Source: Fimbriiglobus sp. (GTDB lineage Bacteria; Planctomycetota; Planctomycetia; Gemmatales; Gemmataceae). From it: DNA of 32,172 nt. Below the pieces are notes generated by a model. It made no database searches. It was not told where the DNA came from and was given only the letters and a program-made list of their open reading frames with translations. Both the position numbers and the translations under genes were made by a program. The stretch is taken from contig JANXWE010000284.1 of NCBI GenBank assembly GCA_025351325.1, positions 1 through 32,172 of the forward strand, given 5' to 3'. Position 1 is the first letter of the stretch; each line of letters opens with the position of its first letter. Shown one piece after another: positions 17,231 to 24,960 of this stretch.

Positions 17231-17302
17231 AAAAATTATGATACGAATCTCGGGAACAAGTGTGTTCAGCATCGGGTGTACCTACGAAATCTGGTCTACG
17301 AA

Positions 17303-17414
17303 TGGCCATCCCGGTATTACTCTGACTCCTGTACTTGTTTCCGCGGAGAATACCCCCCTCCCCGTTGCGGAACCAACGGAAGCAGCGGAAACAAGTGCAG
17401 CAGACAGAATGACG
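17303..17414 (+). repeat. Intergenic hairpin repeat, copy A
   Basis: About 112 bases, matching the reverse complement of 23640-23739. Shared blocks include TACTCTGA-like, CGGAGAA, CCCCTCCCC and GCAGACAGAATGACG at the end. Its arms ACTTGTTTCCGC (17333-17344) and GCGGAAACAAGT (17385-17396) are exact reverse complements, with a G-C and a wobble pair extending the base. Between copies, three stem pairs change on both sides. No gene is encoded; it could be a structured RNA, a REP-like element or a small non-autonomous transposon. Confidence 0.8.
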
Positions 17415-17631
17415 ATTGCGACACGATCTTAAACGATGGGCCGGTCATGGGTTCGGATCGTTGTGTTCGGAGTTGCCTACATTTTGGTGAGTACTGTTGA
17501 CTTTGCCAGTATCTTCGTTTTGAGCGGTGTCCTGCCGATACTCGGTTAGGTCCGTGTGCCAGAAACAATTGTTGCACATCACCCATCATCGGGTGCGATA
17601 ACGATTCTTGGAGTCTTTATAAAACCCAGAT

Positions 17632-17715
17632 GAACGCGGATGATACCCGAGATCAAGAGGATCAGAAAGTAGTCAATCTTTTCTGATCCTGCTTGTTTCC
17701 GCGTCATCCGCGTTC
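17632..17715. repeat. 84-bp imperfect hairpin made of two inverted half-repeats
   Basis: Outer arms GAACGCGGATGA (17632-17643) and TCATCCGCGTTC (17704-17715) are exact reverse complements. Inner arms AGGATCAGAAA (17658-17668) and TTTCTGATCCT (17680-17690) are also exact, extended by CAAG/CTTG across a one-base bulge. The two halves look like the same 50-base unit inserted head to head. The middle of the hairpin is not followed by a T-run. Confidence 0.75.
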
Positions 17716-17857
17716 CTCTTGATTTGGTCTTGGTGACGTCGTGAGTGAAACAACCTCCAAAAATCGTTGGCACCCCCCATCATCGGTGGTGTTGCGATGA
17801 GGCCGAGCCGTCGGTACAACAACAACTCGATTTGAATCGACTCCAGGGACTGCGACG

Positions 17858-19021
17858 ATGATTTCCCCGCGACGCTTTTTACTCGTGCTCAGTCTGGCAT
17901 TACTCGCGGGCTGGATCGTAACCGGGGCCGTTCGGAGCAGTCCAGAAACTCCAACTACCCCAACACGTGTGTCGACCCCGGTGGTCGTCGAAGGGGTGCG
18001 CGTCCTAGTCGAACTTCCCGATGAGTCGAAAACGATCAAGCTCGACACCGAGCCGATGTTTGCCACGCTGCGATTCAAACCACATTACGGCACGGTGGAA
18101 TTCGACACGGCCAAACTGAAACAGGTCATCATCGAGAAAGTCGAAGGCGACTCGGTGCGAGCTTCGGTGGAACTGATCGACGGGCACATGGTTCACGGAC
18201 AATTACTTTCGACGAGCTTGCCGGTGAAGGACGGGGCCGAGATTCGACAGTTGCCACTCAAAGAGGGTTTGAAGCTCAAGTTCTATAAGCCCGGTGAGTT
18301 CGGCGTGCTCGCGGCCATCATCGGCCTCATCACGCTCACGCTGATGGAAGTCGTCCTTGGGATCGACAACGTCATCTTCCTCGCCATCATCTCCGGAAAA
18401 TTACCGACCGAGCAGCAGCCGCTGGCCCGCCGCATCGGCTTGGGTGCCGCACTCGGCACCCGGTTGCTCCTGTTGGCGACACTCTCCTTTTTGCTCGGCT
18501 TGACCAAGCCCATTTTCGAGTTGCCCGAGATGCCATTCTTCCACGAGTATGAAGCGCGCAGCATCTCCTGGCGCGACGTGATCCTCCTTGCCGGCGGAGT
18601 GTTTTTGATTGGCAAGAGCACGCTCGAAATGCACGAGAAGGTCAAAGACTCTAAAAAGTCCGAGGATTCCATCTCGAAAAAGACTGCGAAATTTGCTTCG
18701 GTGATCGTCCAAATTGCCATCATCGACATTGTCTTCTCACTCGATTCGGTGATCACCGCCGTCGGCATGGTCGAACAACTCTGGGTCATGGTCACGGCCA
18801 TGATCATCGCCGTCGGAATTATGCTCGTCTTCGCGGAGCCGATCAGCCGCTTTGTGGAGAAGTACCCGACCGTCAAAGTCTTGGCACTCAGCTTCCTGAT
18901 TTTGATCGGCGTCCTGCTGGTCGCAGAGGGGTTGGGCCAGCACATCGATAAAGGTTACATCTACTTTGCCATGGCCTTCGCCGTACTCGTGGAGTTCATC
19001 AATACCCGGCTCCGACCCTGA
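17858..19021 (+). CDS. TerC-family integral membrane protein with N-terminal extracytoplasmic domain
   Basis: A 387-residue membrane protein. Residues 147-385 form the TerC domain, with about seven hydrophobic segments and the conserved acidic motifs VVLGIDNVIFLAI (D170) and DIVFSLDSVITAVGM (D290, D296). TerC relatives are linked to tellurite resistance and to manganese export/metalation of exported proteins; the substrate here is inferred. Before it stands a signal/anchor segment (about 7-27) and a beta-rich region of roughly 115 residues (30-145) with KLKQVIIEKVEGDSVRASV, not part of standard TerC proteins, which usually have 200-350 residues. It probably faces outside the cytoplasm. GGGA upstream of ATG 17858 may serve as ribosome binding site. 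It is divergent from the IMPase gene. Confidence 0.9.
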   Translation: MISPRRFLLVLSLALLAGWIVTGAVRSSPETPTTPTRVSTPVVVEGVRVLVELPDESKTIKLDTEPMFATLRFKPHYGTVEFDTAKLKQVIIEKVEGDSVRASVELIDGHMVHGQLLSTSLPVKDGAEIRQLPLKEGLKLKFYKPGEFGVLAAIIGLITLTLMEVVLGIDNVIFLAIISGKLPTEQQPLARRIGLGAALGTRLLLLATLSFLLGLTKPIFELPEMPFFHEYEARSISWRDVILLAGGVFLIGKSTLEMHEKVKDSKKSEDSISKKTAKFASVIVQIAIIDIVFSLDSVITAVGMVEQLWVMVTAMIIAVGIMLVFAEPISRFVEKYPTVKVLALSFLILIGVLLVAEGLGQHIDKGYIYFAMAFAVLVEFINTRLRP

Positions 19022-19084
19022 CACCGAAAAATTCCGAAGAGTCGGCTTGCCCGCACCCGCTTTCTCCGGCTAAAATGCAGCAAC

Positions 19085-19528
19085 ATGGAAATGCAACTCC
19101 TCTCCTCAATAAGCTCGACTCCGGATCGAAAGATTCCGCAGTTGAGTGTTTACGATGACAGCGAGACGGAAATCAACGATTTTAAGTGGATCGAAAGTGA
19201 GCGTGTTGGCTACGACCTTGGCGAATCGGCCGTGAAACGCTGGGTCGTTCAGCATTGGCGTGGGTACTTGCGGGCGCGGTGGCTGGAGCATTTGCAGGGC
19301 ACACGGTTTTGGATCGAACTCGACCGTGGCGACTTCGGTCTCCTTCTCATTGCATTCGCCCAAGAGCGGGAACTCCTCCAGCCCATCTTGGATCGGCTCA
19401 AGTCGGGCGAGGAAAATTTGGACGTCATCTGTTGGGCGGAAAACAATCACATTTGCACCGAACCTGTCGTTCGCATTCTTGAAGCTCTCGACATCAATTC
19501 CCGCCGACTTCGGCACCGCTTCGACTGA
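19085..19528 (+). CDS. Conserved-looking hypothetical protein
   Basis: A 147-residue soluble protein that I do not recognise. It has no signal peptide or membrane segment. A tryptophan- and arginine-rich block, RWVVQHWRGYLRARWLEHLQG, is followed by RFWIELDRGDFGLLL; the spacing looks like a conserved small domain. The composition and codon use match the neighbours. It lies 63 bases after the TerC gene and 40 bases before ybeY on the same strand, so it may share a transcript with both. ATG 19085 or 19091 can start it; no strong ribosome binding site is visible. No function is proposed. Confidence 0.7.
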   Translation: MEMQLLSSISSTPDRKIPQLSVYDDSETEINDFKWIESERVGYDLGESAVKRWVVQHWRGYLRARWLEHLQGTRFWIELDRGDFGLLLIAFAQERELLQPILDRLKSGEENLDVICWAENNHICTEPVVRILEALDINSRRLRHRFD

Positions 19529-19568
19529 CTTCCCGCGACAAACTCCGCACTCGCCCTAACATATTTGC

Positions 19569-20012
19569 ATGATCTCCATCTCCGTGAAAAACCAGCAAGA
19601 ACTGGTCGAACTCGACTTCGCCTCCCTCAAATTGGCGGCCAAGACCGTGCTGGAAGGGGAGGGGGTGGCGTCCGCGAAAATCACCTTCGCCTTCTTCGAC
19701 GACGCGACCATCCACGCCATGAACAAGCGGCATCTCAATCACGACGAACCGACCGACGTGCTGACCTTCCCGTACAGCATCCGCGGGGCGGCCAAACTCG
19801 AAGGAGACGTGGCCATCGGCGCCGGCGTTGGCAAAGCCGCAGCGGAGGAACGCGGGCATCCGGTGAACCACGAGCTTTGCTTATACGTGATTCACGCGTG
19901 CCTGCACCTGTGCGGCTACAACGATAAGAAAGAAAACGATAGTGCCGAAATGCGAAGCAAAGAACGCTTCTACCTCGCCAAGCTCGACTTGCCCGACATC
20001 GCCGGAGAATGA
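19569..20012 (+). CDS. ybeY: Endoribonuclease YbeY (rRNA maturation), with altered zinc ligand
   Basis: A 147-residue protein of the YbeY family, which acts in 16S rRNA 3' processing and ribosome quality control. It has the family's NKRHLNHDEPTDVLTFP stretch (about residues 56-72) and the zinc motif region VIHACLHLCGYND (107-119). H109 and H113 fit the first two zinc ligands of HGxLHLxGYDH, but the third histidine is replaced by D119. Aspartate can bind zinc, so the protein may still be active. The stop overlaps the rhodanese start (ATGA), implying coupled translation. Length is slightly below the usual 150-170 residues. Confidence 0.92.
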   Translation: MISISVKNQQELVELDFASLKLAAKTVLEGEGVASAKITFAFFDDATIHAMNKRHLNHDEPTDVLTFPYSIRGAAKLEGDVAIGAGVGKAAAEERGHPVNHELCLYVIHACLHLCGYNDKKENDSAEMRSKERFYLAKLDLPDIAGE

Positions 20013-20338
20013 CCATCCGCCAAATTCTGCCCCGAGACGTCCAAGCGTTGCTCTCGACCGGTTCCCCGGTCGTGTTGCTCGACGTCCGTCAACCCGACGA
20101 GCACGCCTTCTGCCACCTACCCGGCAGCGTACTCATCCCACTCGGGGAGTTGGCGACACGGTTCGAAGAACTCGAGATCCCCGATGACGCCCTGGTCGTG
20201 GTCTACTGCCATCACGGCGTGCGCAGCTTGAGCGGAGTCGGAATCTTGCAACAAGCCGGTATCCAAAACGTCGCCTCCATGGCCAGCGGCATCGAAGCCT
20301 GGAGTTTGACCGTCGACACCGGGGTGCCCCGGTATTGA
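20009..20338 (+). CDS. Single-domain rhodanese-like protein
   Basis: A 109-residue cytoplasmic protein with one rhodanese domain, expected to carry sulfur as a persulfide on its active-site cysteine. Signatures are LLDVRQPDEHAFCHLPGSVLIPL near residues 25-47 (read in two parts) and the active loop VYCHHGVRS with C67. The loop size fits the short sulfurtransferase type (GlpE/ThiI-like domain). It starts inside the ybeY stop (ATGA overlap), so both are probably made together. It ends 12 bases before a convergent DUF1501 gene. The sulfur acceptor is unknown. Confidence 0.92.
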   Translation: MTIRQILPRDVQALLSTGSPVVLLDVRQPDEHAFCHLPGSVLIPLGELATRFEELEIPDDALVVVYCHHGVRSLSGVGILQQAGIQNVASMASGIEAWSLTVDTGVPRY

Positions 20339-20350
20339 GGGATGCTCTTC

Positions 20351-21628
20351 TTACATCACGTCCTTCGTGAACGGCACGTTCCCTTTGTCGACGATCTTGA
20401 TCGGCCGGCCGCTGACGGCTTCGTTCTCCTTGGTGTGGTCGATGCCCAACACCTCGCAGACGGTGGCGAGGAAGTCGCCGGTCTTGACGGGGTGATCCGT
20501 GACCGTGGCTCCTTCCGCATCGGTCTTCCCGACCACGCGGCCACCCTTGAGACCGCCTCCGAACATCGCGAGGCTCCACGCTTTCGGGTAGTGATCGCGG
20601 CCCGGCTTCGTCCCTTTGGTGTTGATGTTCGGCGTCCGGCCGAATTCGCCCATCCAGATCACCAGCGTCGTTTCCAGCAACCCACGCTCTTTCAAATCGG
20701 TGAGCAATGCACTCACGGAATTGTCGATCTGCGTCGAGAGTGTTTTCACCTTCTCGAAGTTGTCGAGGTGGGTGTCCCAGCCGCCGAGGGTCACCTCCAC
20801 AAACGGAACGCCGACTTCGACCAAGCGGCGGGCCATCAGCACGCCATCGGCAAACTTTCCACTACCGTACTTGGTTTTGCTCGCGGCCGGTTCGGCCGAG
20901 ACGTCGAACGCCTTGGCTTCCTTCGAGTGCATCAGTTTCACGGCGCGGTCGTAGTTCGTTTTGTGATCCACCGCCGCACCGGTCTGGTAATCGTGATAGA
21001 ACGCTTTTTCCATTTCTTCGAGCAGGCCGGTGCGGTTCGAGAACTGTTTGTCGGACACTTGCGCTTTCAGATCTTCGACGCCCTTCGTGGCATCTTGAAC
21101 GAGGATCGGCTGATACTTCGGCCCGAGGAAGCCGGAGCCGAAGCTGCGGCCACCGATGGAAACGAAGTTCGGCATCGCCGCTTTTTCGCTGCCAAGTTCC
21201 GACGCGGCGATCGCCCCGAGGCTCGGGTACGTCAGACCACCTTGGCCTTCACGGTAGCCGGTGTGCAGATGGTAGCGAGCGCGAGCGTGTGCCCCTTCCG
21301 GCGTGGACATGCTGCGGACAATCACACCCTCGTGCATGTGGGTCGCCAGCTTCGGCAAATGCTCGCTGATCTCGATTCCCGAGGCAGACGTCTTGATCGG
21401 TTTGAAGTCGCCGGCACCTTTGCTATCGGGTTTGAGGTCGAGCGTGTCCTTGTGGCTGACGCCGCCTTCCGACCAAATCAGAATACAGCTCTTCGGTTTC
21501 TTACCGTTCGGTGCTGCCGCTTGAGCACGGTTGGCCAGCACACCCATCCAGCCGGACAGGGCGACGGAACCGACGCCGAGACTACTCGCTTGGAGGAAAC
21601 GCCGCCGGGTCGCTTGATCGAGGTTCAT
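20351..21628 (-). CDS. DUF1501 secreted protein with Tat signal
   Basis: A 425-residue protein of the DUF1501 family, which has an alkaline-phosphatase/sulfatase-like fold and is greatly expanded in planctomycetes. The N-terminus MNLDQATRRRFLQASSLG carries a twin-arginine signal, so export in folded form is likely. Family stretches include SCILIWSEGGVSHKDTLD, GAHARARYHLHTG and VIWMGEFGRTPNINTKG, and near the end DHYPKAWSLAMFGGG. ATG 21628 is chosen because it opens the Tat signal; the frame extends to 21697 without support. It lies 78 bases downstream of a DUF1549/DUF1553 gene, a very common planctomycete pairing. The substrate is unknown. Confidence 0.95.
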   Translation of the reverse strand: MNLDQATRRRFLQASSLGVGSVALSGWMGVLANRAQAAAPNGKKPKSCILIWSEGGVSHKDTLDLKPDSKGAGDFKPIKTSASGIEISEHLPKLATHMHEGVIVRSMSTPEGAHARARYHLHTGYREGQGGLTYPSLGAIAASELGSEKAAMPNFVSIGGRSFGSGFLGPKYQPILVQDATKGVEDLKAQVSDKQFSNRTGLLEEMEKAFYHDYQTGAAVDHKTNYDRAVKLMHSKEAKAFDVSAEPAASKTKYGSGKFADGVLMARRLVEVGVPFVEVTLGGWDTHLDNFEKVKTLSTQIDNSVSALLTDLKERGLLETTLVIWMGEFGRTPNINTKGTKPGRDHYPKAWSLAMFGGGLKGGRVVGKTDAEGATVTDHPVKTGDFLATVCEVLGIDHTKENEAVSGRPIKIVDKGNVPFTKDVM

Positions 21629-21706
21629 GGGATGGCTCGTTGAGGTTGGATGGTTTGTCGGATCGCAATTCTTCTGACCACTCTCTTCTCTGACCACTGA
21701 CCACCA

Positions 21707-23437
21707 CTATCGCACCATGCTGAATTCACTGCTGTTGAGCAAAGCCCACAGGATGTCGCTGTAGCCTTCGGTGGGGCTGCTCGCCTTGGCGAGGTGGGTC
21801 GAGAGTTTCTGAATTTCTGCGCTGGTCGGCCGTCGGGCCAACGTGGTGATGTACATCTTCTCGAAGATGTCTGCCGGTTTGCCGGTGCCGAATTGTTTCA
21901 GGGCGGCCGGATTGCCAGCGATCTTCGAGTTCATCAATTTGAGTGCTTGTGGAATTCCCGCTTCGTAGGTGGTGCTCTTCACTTCGTCCGCTCCAGCCAG
22001 GAAGAAGGTCACAAACGAGGCACGGGGGCCACCATTACCGTATTTCATGCCGGGTCTCTTCACTTCGGGTGCTGGTGAGACCAAACCGGTGATGACGGCG
22101 AGACTGTCGAACAGCTCTTCACCCGACATCATTTTTACATTCATGTGGCTGTAAAGTTGAGCGTCGCCTTTATTGCTCGGTGAATGCTTACTGGTGCGTT
22201 GGTAGGCTTGCGTGAGAGTGATGCATTTGATGAGGTACTTCACGTCAAACCCACTGGCGGTGAACTTGGCTGTCAATTCTTCGAACAATTCCGGGTGCGA
22301 TGGTTTGTTCTTGTCAATCATGTCATCGACGGGATCGACGATGCCATTCCCGAAGAGTTGGGCCCAGGTTCGGTTCACCATCGCCTTGGCGAAATACGGG
22401 TTCTCAGCACTCGTCAACCATTTGGCGAGGGCAGGGCGGTACGGTTCCGCACCGCTCAACTTCGGTTCGTCGCCACCGAAGAATTTGGGAGCGACCGTCT
22501 TCGCCGATTCGGGGAAGAACTCTTTGGTACGCGATTTCGATGCCCCTTCGGTCACGGTGAGTTTGGTGTTATCGCCACCCATCACCGCGTTCTTAGGCCG
22601 TTGCGGAACCACCTTCGAGTAGAACGCGGCTAAGCCCCAATACTCGGTCTGCTTGGTCGACGTGAACGGGTGGTTGTGGCACTGAGCGCAGTTGATCCGT
22701 ACCCCGAGAAAGTGCTGACCGGTGGTGTCGGTGAGTTTGTCGATGCTCCGGTTCGAAAGAAAGTACGTCACGGCTGGGTTCTCATCGACCGGGCCAGTCG
22801 CGGTGACGATGGCCGACACGAATTCATTCCACGGTGTGTTCTGGTTGAATTGATCCTTGAGCCAGTCGGTGAAGGGTTCTTTCTGGACGAATCGATTGTC
22901 CGAATCGACTGTGAACAACTTGGCTCCCCAGATGTCGGCCTGCTTGCGGCCGTAGTGCGAATCGCTCAGCAATTCATCGATCAGTTTTTCACGCTTGTTG
23001 GTCGATTTGTCGTCGAGGAACGCTTTGGCCTTCTCGTACTGCGGGATCACCCCGGTGATGTCGAGGTAGACGCGCCGTAGGAAGTCGGCGTCGGTTCCGA
23101 TCGGCGACACGGGCAAATTGTCTTTCTTCAGCCGGGCGTCGATTTGGCTGTCGATCATTTTGGCCACGGCGGGGGCATCTTGGAGAGCAGACGGTCGTGA
23201 GACGGTTTTCTTGGCGTCGGCCGCTGCTTTCTTCGCCAATTCTGCCGCTTTGGCGTCGTTGACTTTCTTAGCCTCTTCGACCTTCTTGGCTTCGTCGGCC
23301 GCTTTCTTGGCAGCTTCCTCTTTCGCCTTGATCCGTTGTGCTTTCAAATCCGCTTTGACATCGGCAGCGGGTAAGGAGGAGCCGATCATCGCCAACGCTG
23401 AAAAAACGGCCAGTGTGAAAACGCGTAAAGTTTTCAT
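21707..23437 (-). CDS. DUF1549/DUF1553 secreted protein with CxxCH motif
   Basis: A 576-residue exported protein. A signal peptide (MKTLRVFTLAVFSALAMIGS) is followed by a lysine/alanine-rich, probably coiled-coil stretch (about residues 25-80). The DUF1549 domain follows (DADFLRRVYLDITGVIP, then NCAQCHNHPF, a CxxCH that could bind heme c). The DUF1553 domain closes it, with RPALAKWLTSAENPYFAKA, NRTWAQLFGNGIVDPVDD and LWALLNSSEF at the end. Such proteins are paired with DUF1501 proteins throughout planctomycetes and are suspected to act in breakdown of complex polymers, without proof. ATG 23437 starts the signal peptide; longer starts up to 23551 lack support. Confidence 0.95.
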   Translation of the reverse strand: MKTLRVFTLAVFSALAMIGSSLPAADVKADLKAQRIKAKEEAAKKAADEAKKVEEAKKVNDAKAAELAKKAAADAKKTVSRPSALQDAPAVAKMIDSQIDARLKKDNLPVSPIGTDADFLRRVYLDITGVIPQYEKAKAFLDDKSTNKREKLIDELLSDSHYGRKQADIWGAKLFTVDSDNRFVQKEPFTDWLKDQFNQNTPWNEFVSAIVTATGPVDENPAVTYFLSNRSIDKLTDTTGQHFLGVRINCAQCHNHPFTSTKQTEYWGLAAFYSKVVPQRPKNAVMGGDNTKLTVTEGASKSRTKEFFPESAKTVAPKFFGGDEPKLSGAEPYRPALAKWLTSAENPYFAKAMVNRTWAQLFGNGIVDPVDDMIDKNKPSHPELFEELTAKFTASGFDVKYLIKCITLTQAYQRTSKHSPSNKGDAQLYSHMNVKMMSGEELFDSLAVITGLVSPAPEVKRPGMKYGNGGPRASFVTFFLAGADEVKSTTYEAGIPQALKLMNSKIAGNPAALKQFGTGKPADIFEKMYITTLARRPTSAEIQKLSTHLAKASSPTEGYSDILWALLNSSEFSMVR

Positions 23438-23823
23438 GGGTATCGCATCCCTCGTTCGTGTCATTGAGCCTGTCAGCAAATCAACCCAAGGGCGAACGAG
23501 AGGTTTCGCCTGAAACCAATTCCCCGTGCGAATGTCGGAGTGAATACTCAAACTCTCATAGCACGCTCATGGTTTTGACGGAGTTTTGCCGGACTAAATT
23601 GGAAAAGTGATCATCAAGTGGTTCATCGCGGTGAGAAACTCGTCATTCTGTCTGCTGTTCTTGTGTCTGATGCGTCCACAGAGGGGAGGGGGTGTTCTCC
23701 GCAGACACAAGAACAAGCGTCAGAGTAGTACCAGGATGGGCCAAAAGGACGACGGAATCGGTCGGCGCACCCTTTCGTTGTTTTAAGACTGTCGAATGGC
23801 GACTCTTTTCGCAGAATACGGGG
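23438..23823. other. Divergent intergenic region with repeat copy B
   Basis: These 386 bases lie between the DUF1549/DUF1553 gene and the ABC permease gene. The main content is hairpin repeat copy B (23640-23739). The open frames running into the region from both sides look like non-coding extensions. No promoter box was convincing; promoters for both divergent genes should lie here. Confidence 0.65.
23640..23739 (-). repeat. Intergenic hairpin repeat, copy B
   Basis: The reverse complement matches copy A at 17303-17414, with small gaps in the loop. Arms GTTCTTGTGTCTG (23657-23669) and CAGACACAAGAAC (23702-23714) are exact reverse complements (13 bp). Against copy A the stem shows A-T to T-A, T-A to G-C and C-G to T-A double changes and a wobble to T-A. 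As in copy A it lies between divergently transcribed genes. Confidence 0.8.
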
Positions 23824-24960
23824 ATGGATTTCGCCCTCGCCACCATTTGGTACGAACGCCAGCGGTTCCTCCCGGCCATTTTGGCCGTCTCGTTCAGTGC
23901 GATTCTGATGGTCGTTCAGGGCGGACTCGTCGTCGGGCTACTCTCGATGATGTCCGTGCCCGTCGACAAAGCGACCTCCGATGTTTGGATCGGTTCGCCC
24001 GGTGTGAAGAGCGTCGATCTCGGTCAGAAGATCCCCGAGCGCTGGATCGCCCGCGTCGCCAATCAGCCCGAAGTCGTCCGAGCCGAACCGCAAATCATCT
24101 CCTTTTCGATGTGGACTCCCATCGACCGCAACGCACCCCCATCTAGCCCGGCCGTCTGCTTGATCGTGGGCTGCAAGCTCGACAAAGACTCCATCGGCGC
24201 CGTCGAGCAACTCCGGGAAAATCCCGAGTTGATGGTGAAGCTCACCGAACCGAACACCATCGTCGTCGACGAATCCGAAGTCGGCCGGTTGGGCGTCAAA
24301 GGGATCGGCGACCAAGGGGAAATCGCGGGACGTGTCGTGCGGATCGTCGGCCTCGTCCAAGGGTACAAATCGCTCGGCGGGCCTTACGTGTTCTGCTCCC
24401 TCGAGACGGCCCGGGTCATCGCCCGCGAGCGCGCCGGAGACTGCACCTACTTGCTCGCAAAATGCAAGTCGCCCGCCGACGCGCAGATCGTGAAAGAACG
24501 GTTAAAAAAGTACGACCAAATGTCGACGTTCGACGCCGAGGAATTTTCCGTCCGCTCCCGGATGCACTGGCTCACGACCACCAAGGCCGGCATCGCCGTC
24601 GGCTTCACCGCCCTGCTGGGGTTGCTGGTCGGCGCCGTCGTCACCAGTCAAACCCTGTACGCGGCGATGGCCGCGAGCCAGCGGGAATACTCGACGCTGC
24701 GGGCCATGGGCATTCCCGCCTGGCGACTCCGCATGACTGTGATGGCCAAATCATTCTGGGTCGGCTTCTTCGGGTTGATCGTCGCAGCACCTGTCACGCT
24801 GGTGGTTTCTGAAATCGCCACCGCCATCGGCATCAAAGTCACCCTGCATCCGCTAGTCGTGTTGGGGGCCGCCGTCATCACCCTGTCGATGGCGTTGCTT
24901 TCCGGTTTGGCGGCACTCCGGGCGGTGCAGGGCGTCGATCCGGCTCACAATATTCGCTGA
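23824..24960 (+). CDS. ABC transporter permease, DevC/MacB (FtsX-like) type
   Basis: A 378-residue inner-membrane protein. An N-terminal membrane segment (about residues 15-40) is followed by a large extracytoplasmic domain (to about 250) and three more membrane segments in the C-terminal FtsX-like domain. It ends with a coupling-helix-type stretch, REYSTLRAMGIPAWRLR, and SGLAALRAVQGVDPAHNIR, typical of DevC/MacB permeases. It is followed by an HlyD-like adaptor, the order seen in DevBCA-type exporters, but no ATPase gene is nearby. ATG 23824 is chosen: family homology starts at FALATIWYERQRF, GGGG lies just upstream, and the longer frame from 23692 would run through intergenic repeat copy B. 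The exported substrate is unknown. Confidence 0.88.
   Translation: MDFALATIWYERQRFLPAILAVSFSAILMVVQGGLVVGLLSMMSVPVDKATSDVWIGSPGVKSVDLGQKIPERWIARVANQPEVVRAEPQIISFSMWTPIDRNAPPSSPAVCLIVGCKLDKDSIGAVEQLRENPELMVKLTEPNTIVVDESEVGRLGVKGIGDQGEIAGRVVRIVGLVQGYKSLGGPYVFCSLETARVIARERAGDCTYLLAKCKSPADAQIVKERLKKYDQMSTFDAEEFSVRSRMHWLTTTKAGIAVGFTALLGLLVGAVVTSQTLYAAMAASQREYSTLRAMGIPAWRLRMTVMAKSFWVGFFGLIVAAPVTLVVSEIATAIGIKVTLHPLVVLGAAVITLSMALLSGLAALRAVQGVDPAHNIR

Follow-up and report, generated by a model that had tools for sequence, protein, structure and literature searches.

Several described systems come close to the repeats analysed here. Elements of the TnGBS, ISLre2, and ISKra4 groups insert 13-17 bp upstream of sigmaA promoters (Guerillot et al. 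2014, PMC3942029). Their orientation is set by unequal IRs, which are 18-39 bp long with a terminal C, and they have 8-9 bp DRs (PMC3942029). For such oriented promoter-upstream elements target choice has been proposed, and the p-MULT 4 elements occur in Planctomycetes (PMC3942029). REPs are 20-40 bp long and lie mainly 3' of genes (PMC3733652), and the alphaproteobacterial alpha-r14/cuckoo sRNAs have an ultraconserved loop on differing stems (PMC10746234). Furthermore, a mutational process that restores pairing in quasi-palindromes is documented in bacteria (PMC7202029).

We analysed two intergenic repeats in a window of 32,172 nucleotides (the whole stretch of DNA studied here) from Fimbriiglobus sp., whose genome is a draft assembly of 5.09 Mb in 382 contigs. 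The repeats belong to a lineage-specific family of non-autonomous DDE-type transposable elements (MITEs), a class assignment that does not require a parent element with the same ends. They are probably ~308-bp MITEs that are moved in trans by a promoter-targeting Mutator-superfamily transposase and carry a stem-loop kept as a structure.

An earlier note on the window had described the repeats at 17303-17414 (+, copy A) and 23640-23739 (-, copy B) as diverged copies with compensatory changes in the stem, each lying between divergently transcribed genes. Both are found there and can be aligned end to end, and copy B was retrieved with copy A as the query (75% identity, E = 2e-15). The 12-13 bp stems are present in both copies in the alignment and the sequence: ACTTGTTTCCGC/GCGGAAACAAGT plus a T.G pair in copy A, and GTTCTTGTGTCTG/CAGACACAAGAAC in copy B. 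All three double changes between the copies (A-T to T-A, T-A to G-C, and C-G to T-A) were seen in the alignment and the pair counts, as was the change of a wobble to a Watson-Crick pair. Folding z-scores against dinucleotide shuffles were -5.0 for copy A and -3.0 for copy B. Divergent genes flank each copy, encoding inositol monophosphatase and TerC at copy A and a PSCyt2/PSD1 protein and an FtsX-like permease at copy B; the PSCyt2/PSD1 and DUF1501-type proteins in the gene content point to a planctomycete.

A blast of copy A against its own genome gave 40 places at E <= 7e-12. The earlier note had proposed a covariance-model scan of the genome, and a model built from 27 of these 40 places found 51 at E <= 7e-11. 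The contig-end pairs C223/C91 and C180/C167 are halves of two copies; therefore, the 51 model places correspond to ~49 copies. Thus the family has about 50 dispersed copies in the genome, far above chance. A search of 59 related genomes gave matches no stronger than E = 2.4e-4, and the family in its present form is lineage-specific. A search of the window against Rfam gave no match at gathering scores, and the 16-mer GCAGACAGAATGACGA had 86 scattered matches in 257 Gb of genomes, about the chance expectation.

The intact form of the element is ~308 bp long, with a region from -61 to +247 around the stem start shared by about 15-18 copies. Its ends are imperfect terminal inverted repeats (TIRs) of about 23 bp, GGGTGC...GCACCC. 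The left end, GGGTGCGCCAACCGATTCTGGC, can be aligned to GGGTGCAACAATTGTTTCTGGC, the reverse complement of the right end GCCAGAAACAATTGTTGCACCC. The element is non-coding and multi-copy, and a transposase gene would not fit in it. Among 11 copies with both ends, a target duplication length of 9 gave an identity of 0.59, against 0.26 in a null of mismatched copies, and the other lengths from 5 to 12 gave lower identities. The 9-bp duplication is perfect (9/9) in C6, C380, and the joined copy C223/C167, and it reaches 8/9 in C39 and 7/9 in C264. The joined copy is not independent evidence, because the pairing across contigs rested partly on matching duplications. Only 5 of the 11 copies have a duplication of at least 7/9, and several have no clean duplication. 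C223 and C91 carry identical hairpins on different left flanks, which shows recent mobility.

Copy A is a full-length MITE of 306 bp (17274..17579, +), with homology to ~15 other copies over almost its whole length, so the coordinates in the earlier note cover only its first 40% or so. It begins with GGGTGTAC and ends with CAATTGTTGCACAT. The left TIR (17274..17296, +) matches GGGTGCGCCAACCGATTCTGGCG at 15/23 positions and the right TIR (17554..17579, +) matches GTGTGCCAGAAACAATTGTTGCACCC at 24/26 positions; the target duplication is 6/9 at best. The hairpin module (17315..17415, +) was identified by the covariance model (E 3e-30, with the copy itself in the model), the fold, and the pair counts. 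Its stem arms are at about 17333-17344 and 17385-17396 (+), with the C-rich loop ACCCCCCTCCCC. Copy B (23640..23772, -) is a diverged MITE of stem subfamily B with a decayed right half. Its left end, GGGTGCGCCGACC at 23772, was outside the coordinates first given. The hairpin module of copy B (23640..23730, -), with the stem given above, was identified by the fold and the covariance model (E 4e-24, again with the copy itself in the model). A second, different palindromic MITE of 185 bp with the same GGGTGC terminus adjoins copy A (17591..17775, +). Its TIR is GGGTGCGATAACGATTCTTGGAG/CTCCAAAAATCGTTGGCACCC, it is flanked on either side by a perfectly matching 9-bp duplication, CCCATCATC (9/9), and relatives of it are found in contigs C4, C120, C227, C264, and C180.

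The hairpin module is better conserved than the remainder of the element, outlives its flanks, and is found with more than one type of flank. In 18 full copies the mean diversity was 0.124 in the 101-bp hairpin core and 0.25 in the flanks, and there were 0.38 singletons per site in the core compared with 0.58-0.77 in the flanks. The C-rich loop was the least variable part, with a diversity of 0.069. The hairpin is also intact in many copies whose flanks are unrecognisable. In 27 distinct sequences, 91% of cells were paired, and 8 of 24 pairs had changed on both sides (7 of 14 in the main stem) compared with 1-3 in controls with slid partners. The 3' side is built of tandem 9-nt units (GGAACCAAY), and these change together with the stem; the 5' arm can pair either with the true 3' arm or with an inner GYGGAAC unit.

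The compensatory-change argument of the earlier note is weaker than it appears. The double changes are real, but two of the three separate the two stem subfamilies as a fixed difference, and the third affects a weak end pair that flips. Part of that covariation is thus a subfamily difference. Parsimony on a flank-only tree traced the double changes at 5/56 and 8/53 to one copy, C380, and showed repeated A-T/T-A flips at pair -1/62 with A-A and T-T intermediates. C380 (18573-18878 in the own genome, G000) combines the stem of subfamily B with MITE flanks of the main type, and its 9-bp duplication, CGTTTTAAT, is perfect. This copy is chimeric, and therefore the hairpin module seems to have been exchanged between elements or backbones. 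It is conceivable that mutation and not selection restores the pairing, either by template switching from one arm of a quasi-palindrome to the other or by gene conversion between copies. The flips of the outer pair -1/62 through mismatched intermediates would fit such a process, the C380 stem on foreign flanks points to module exchange, and the process has a bacterial precedent (PMC7202029). However, this explanation leaves unexplained why the unpaired loop is the most conserved part and why hairpins persist amid unrecognisable flanks, and we consider it unlikely.

The sister species G002, from the same genus, has its own dispersed hairpin family with a different stem. The architecture there is CTTTCCGACG, a loop with CCCCACCC, RTCGGAAAGC, a spacer, and TCGGAAAGC...TCGGAATGACC. 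The hairpins of both genomes have in common the C-rich loop, repeated units on the 3' side, and a GAATGAC tail. Many G002 loops read CCCCACCCCCC and are without CCUCC. One copy of the G002 type is present in the own genome (C289). The G002 family supports conservation of the hairpin architecture, with a common origin of the two families inferred from their resemblance and from weak scores. The G002 hairpins (L275-L285) have a right flank that is conserved over ~70 bp, on the left they stop sharply at the 5' arm, and some of them lie 6-11 bp after stop codons (C252, C330, C348). In another genus, a single hairpin with E 0.005 was found in the genome G035, a single contig (G035:C1, near 978078-978155; L158), where CCGATGCACTTGTTTCCG...CGGAAACAAG is common to it and the own-genome copies.

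The earlier note had read the stem changes as a sign that the paired structure is kept either by selection or by a hairpin-dependent transposition mechanism. That the structure is kept is borne out by hairpin variation half that of the flanks, by main-stem pairs changed on both sides in 7 of 14 cases, and by the sister-species architecture with another stem. The transposition mechanism was not supported: the intact element has ordinary TIRs and 9-bp target duplications.

The note had also suggested an undescribed structured RNA, which the hairpin may be. Raw folding energy favoured the bottom strand in 47 of 51 copies, but after composition control the z-scores were equal between strands (-3.6 and -3.3), and the preference for a bottom-strand RNA was gone. 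Because both strands fold equally well by this measure, reading the hairpin as RNA has no advantage over reading it as DNA. In its most specific form, the hairpin would be a structured sRNA with an anti-Shine-Dalgarno-like C-rich loop (CCCCUCC) that pairs with ribosome-binding sites and hitch-hikes on the MITE. The low loop diversity (pi 0.069) would agree with this, as would the persistence of the C-rich loop while stems differ between subfamilies and species, and conserved CCUCCUCCC loops with divergent stems are a precedent (PMC10746234). We nevertheless find this form rather doubtful: folding shows no strand preference, conservation of a sense promoter or terminator is not established, the many sister-species loops that read CCCCACCCCCC do not have CCUCC, and the window has no Rfam match.

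The preferred explanation, a MITE moved by a promoter-targeting transposase, draws on where and how the copies are inserted. With genes called by a simple codon score trained on long ORFs, the left end of MITE-type copies faces the start of the neighbouring gene in 23 of 23 cases (intergenic null 0.53, p = 4.6e-7). Among core-only copies, 19 of 26 have a left-hand gene that reads away from the element (p = 0.03). A sigma70 scan reading outward from 20 left ends, in which promoters were predicted by an E. coli-style consensus, gave a mean best score of 7.32, compared with 5.72 in random DNA (p = 1e-11) and 6.07 upstream of other genes (p = 2.6e-8). The predicted -35 box lies at a median of about 16 bp outside the left end, mostly at 7-24 bp. 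Clear predicted promoters are TTGACA-N18-TAGATT at C248, TTGCAA-N18-TACACT at C169, and TTGTCC-N17-TATATT at C135. In the window, the predicted promoter of the inositol monophosphatase gene (17231..17265, -) is outside the left end of copy A, from the promoter scan and the sequence, with TTGTTC or TGAACA as the -35 box and TATCAT/CATAAT as the -10 box. A spacer with a weak predicted promoter (23773..23823, +) separates the left end of copy B from the FtsX-like gene, whose ATG is near 23824. The core-only (+,+) copies C162, C4, and C127 lie 3-16 bp after stop codons, and promoter targeting gives no account of them.

The one orientation might instead be kept by selection on the expression of the left gene, with the element acting as a mobile promoter or operator, and not by target choice. 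The uniform orientation is in line with this, and so is a TATAAT-like box in the right part that points to the gene from the complementary strand. However, promoters of the neighbouring genes are predicted outside the element, the candidate internal promoter in the right part scored 6.75, near background, and was rejected, and for published elements with such behaviour target choice has been proposed (PMC3942029). We therefore judge a mobile promoter to be improbable.

The weakest alternative is that the repeats are REP/BIME-type palindromes moved by a RAYT (Y1) transposase, the REP-type family that the earlier note had offered together with a check for RAYT genes, and we reject it as highly improbable: like REPs with GTAG/CGTC tags (PMC3733652), the hairpins are palindromes dispersed outside genes and have a CGTC end on one strand, and the genome has three Y1_Tnp genes, but each of these is flanked by its own, unrelated palindromes, and unlike REPs, which are 20-40 bp long and mainly 3' of genes, the hairpin is a ~100-bp module in a much longer element of 308 bp that has TIRs and 9-bp duplications and is found mostly at gene starts. 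The inverted repeats of the Y1_Tnp (RAYT-like) genes at C329, C113, and C139 of the own genome (L203-L205) are ~50-130 bp long, and these loci are probably genuine REP/RAYT systems unrelated to the hairpin family.

For the promoter-targeting MITE, candidate mobilisers were sought in the same genome. There is one intact ISKra4-like transposase gene (C322, 135 bits, below the curated cut-off of 205), along with several fragments, and no MITE ends were found around C322. Transposase_mut (PF00872) is absent from the genome, and the ISLre2 model gave weak matches only. Whole-element blast, the TIR pattern, and the surroundings of TIR-only loci revealed no autonomous parent in the fragmented draft assembly. 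Since the ISKra4-like gene scores below the cut-off and has no MITE ends around it, the mobiliser is inferred. The right TIR is present at several further loci of the draft assembly with no recognisable transposase beside them. At six loci of the own genome, C83, C142, C215, C15, C153, and C197 (L217-L222), this right TIR, GGGTGCRACAATTGTTTCTGGC, occurs without the hairpin, and C83 and C15 have ~180 bp of a further element in common. Several MITE families seem to share the right-TIR terminus.

In the mechanism that we propose, a Mutator-superfamily transposase, most likely of the ISKra4 (p-MULT 4) type, would mobilise the MITEs in trans and dock them upstream of -35 boxes, and the two unequal ends would set the orientation of insertion. 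The ~100-bp internal stem-loop would be kept because its stem and loop are recognised as a structure. It would most likely be a DNA or RNA structure that affects transcription near the promoter, or one that is bound by a protein of the host or the element. It could act as a barrier or binding site by the promoter, work as an anti-Shine-Dalgarno-type RNA, or be required for transposition.

A bolder proposal, to which we give low confidence, is that the hairpins are a new class of stem-loop with a C-rich loop and a stem-switching architecture, in which one 5' arm is complementary to several tandem 9-nt 3' units, and that this class is kept by selection across a planctomycete genus and spread to promoter-proximal sites by a promoter-targeting MITE. 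If so, a transposon would wire the same structured regulator into dozens of genes. 

The promoter-targeting MITE itself would take oriented insertion at promoters beyond the ISs and ICEs from which it is known, to a non-coding element present at about 50 sites in a single planctomycete-like genome. Since the intact copies share their orientation and have similar spacing to the predicted promoters, the MITEs are a natural test of whether docking rewires expression. With its constant loop and a stem that varies by subfamily and species, the module is a concrete candidate for a structured unit that a transposon has spread. Literature searches on Gemmata hairpin repeats and on mobile promoters in connection with MITEs yielded no usable results.

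Compared with known systems, the hairpins resemble the alpha-r14/cuckoo sRNAs in having several copies, a conserved C-rich loop, and divergent stems. Unlike those sRNAs, they are carried on a transposable element, their loop is not always CCUCC, and they are described here at the DNA level. As in other bacterial MITEs, the element is short and non-coding, with TIRs, target duplications, and dozens of copies per genome, but unlike bacterial MITEs generally it has an internal stem-loop that is more conserved than the TIRs, survives decay, and occurs on more than one flank background. It differs from the TnGBS, ISLre2, and ISKra4 elements in being non-coding and ~308 bp long, with a conserved hairpin and no transposase tied to it. 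Apart from the identity of the transposase, the MITE as modelled here has all the testable features of p-MULT 3/4 elements. Like the promoter-upstream elements of the Mutator superfamily, it is oriented, sits ~13-17 bp upstream of the predicted -35 box, and has unequal IRs within the 18-39 bp range with a terminal C and 8-9 bp duplications.
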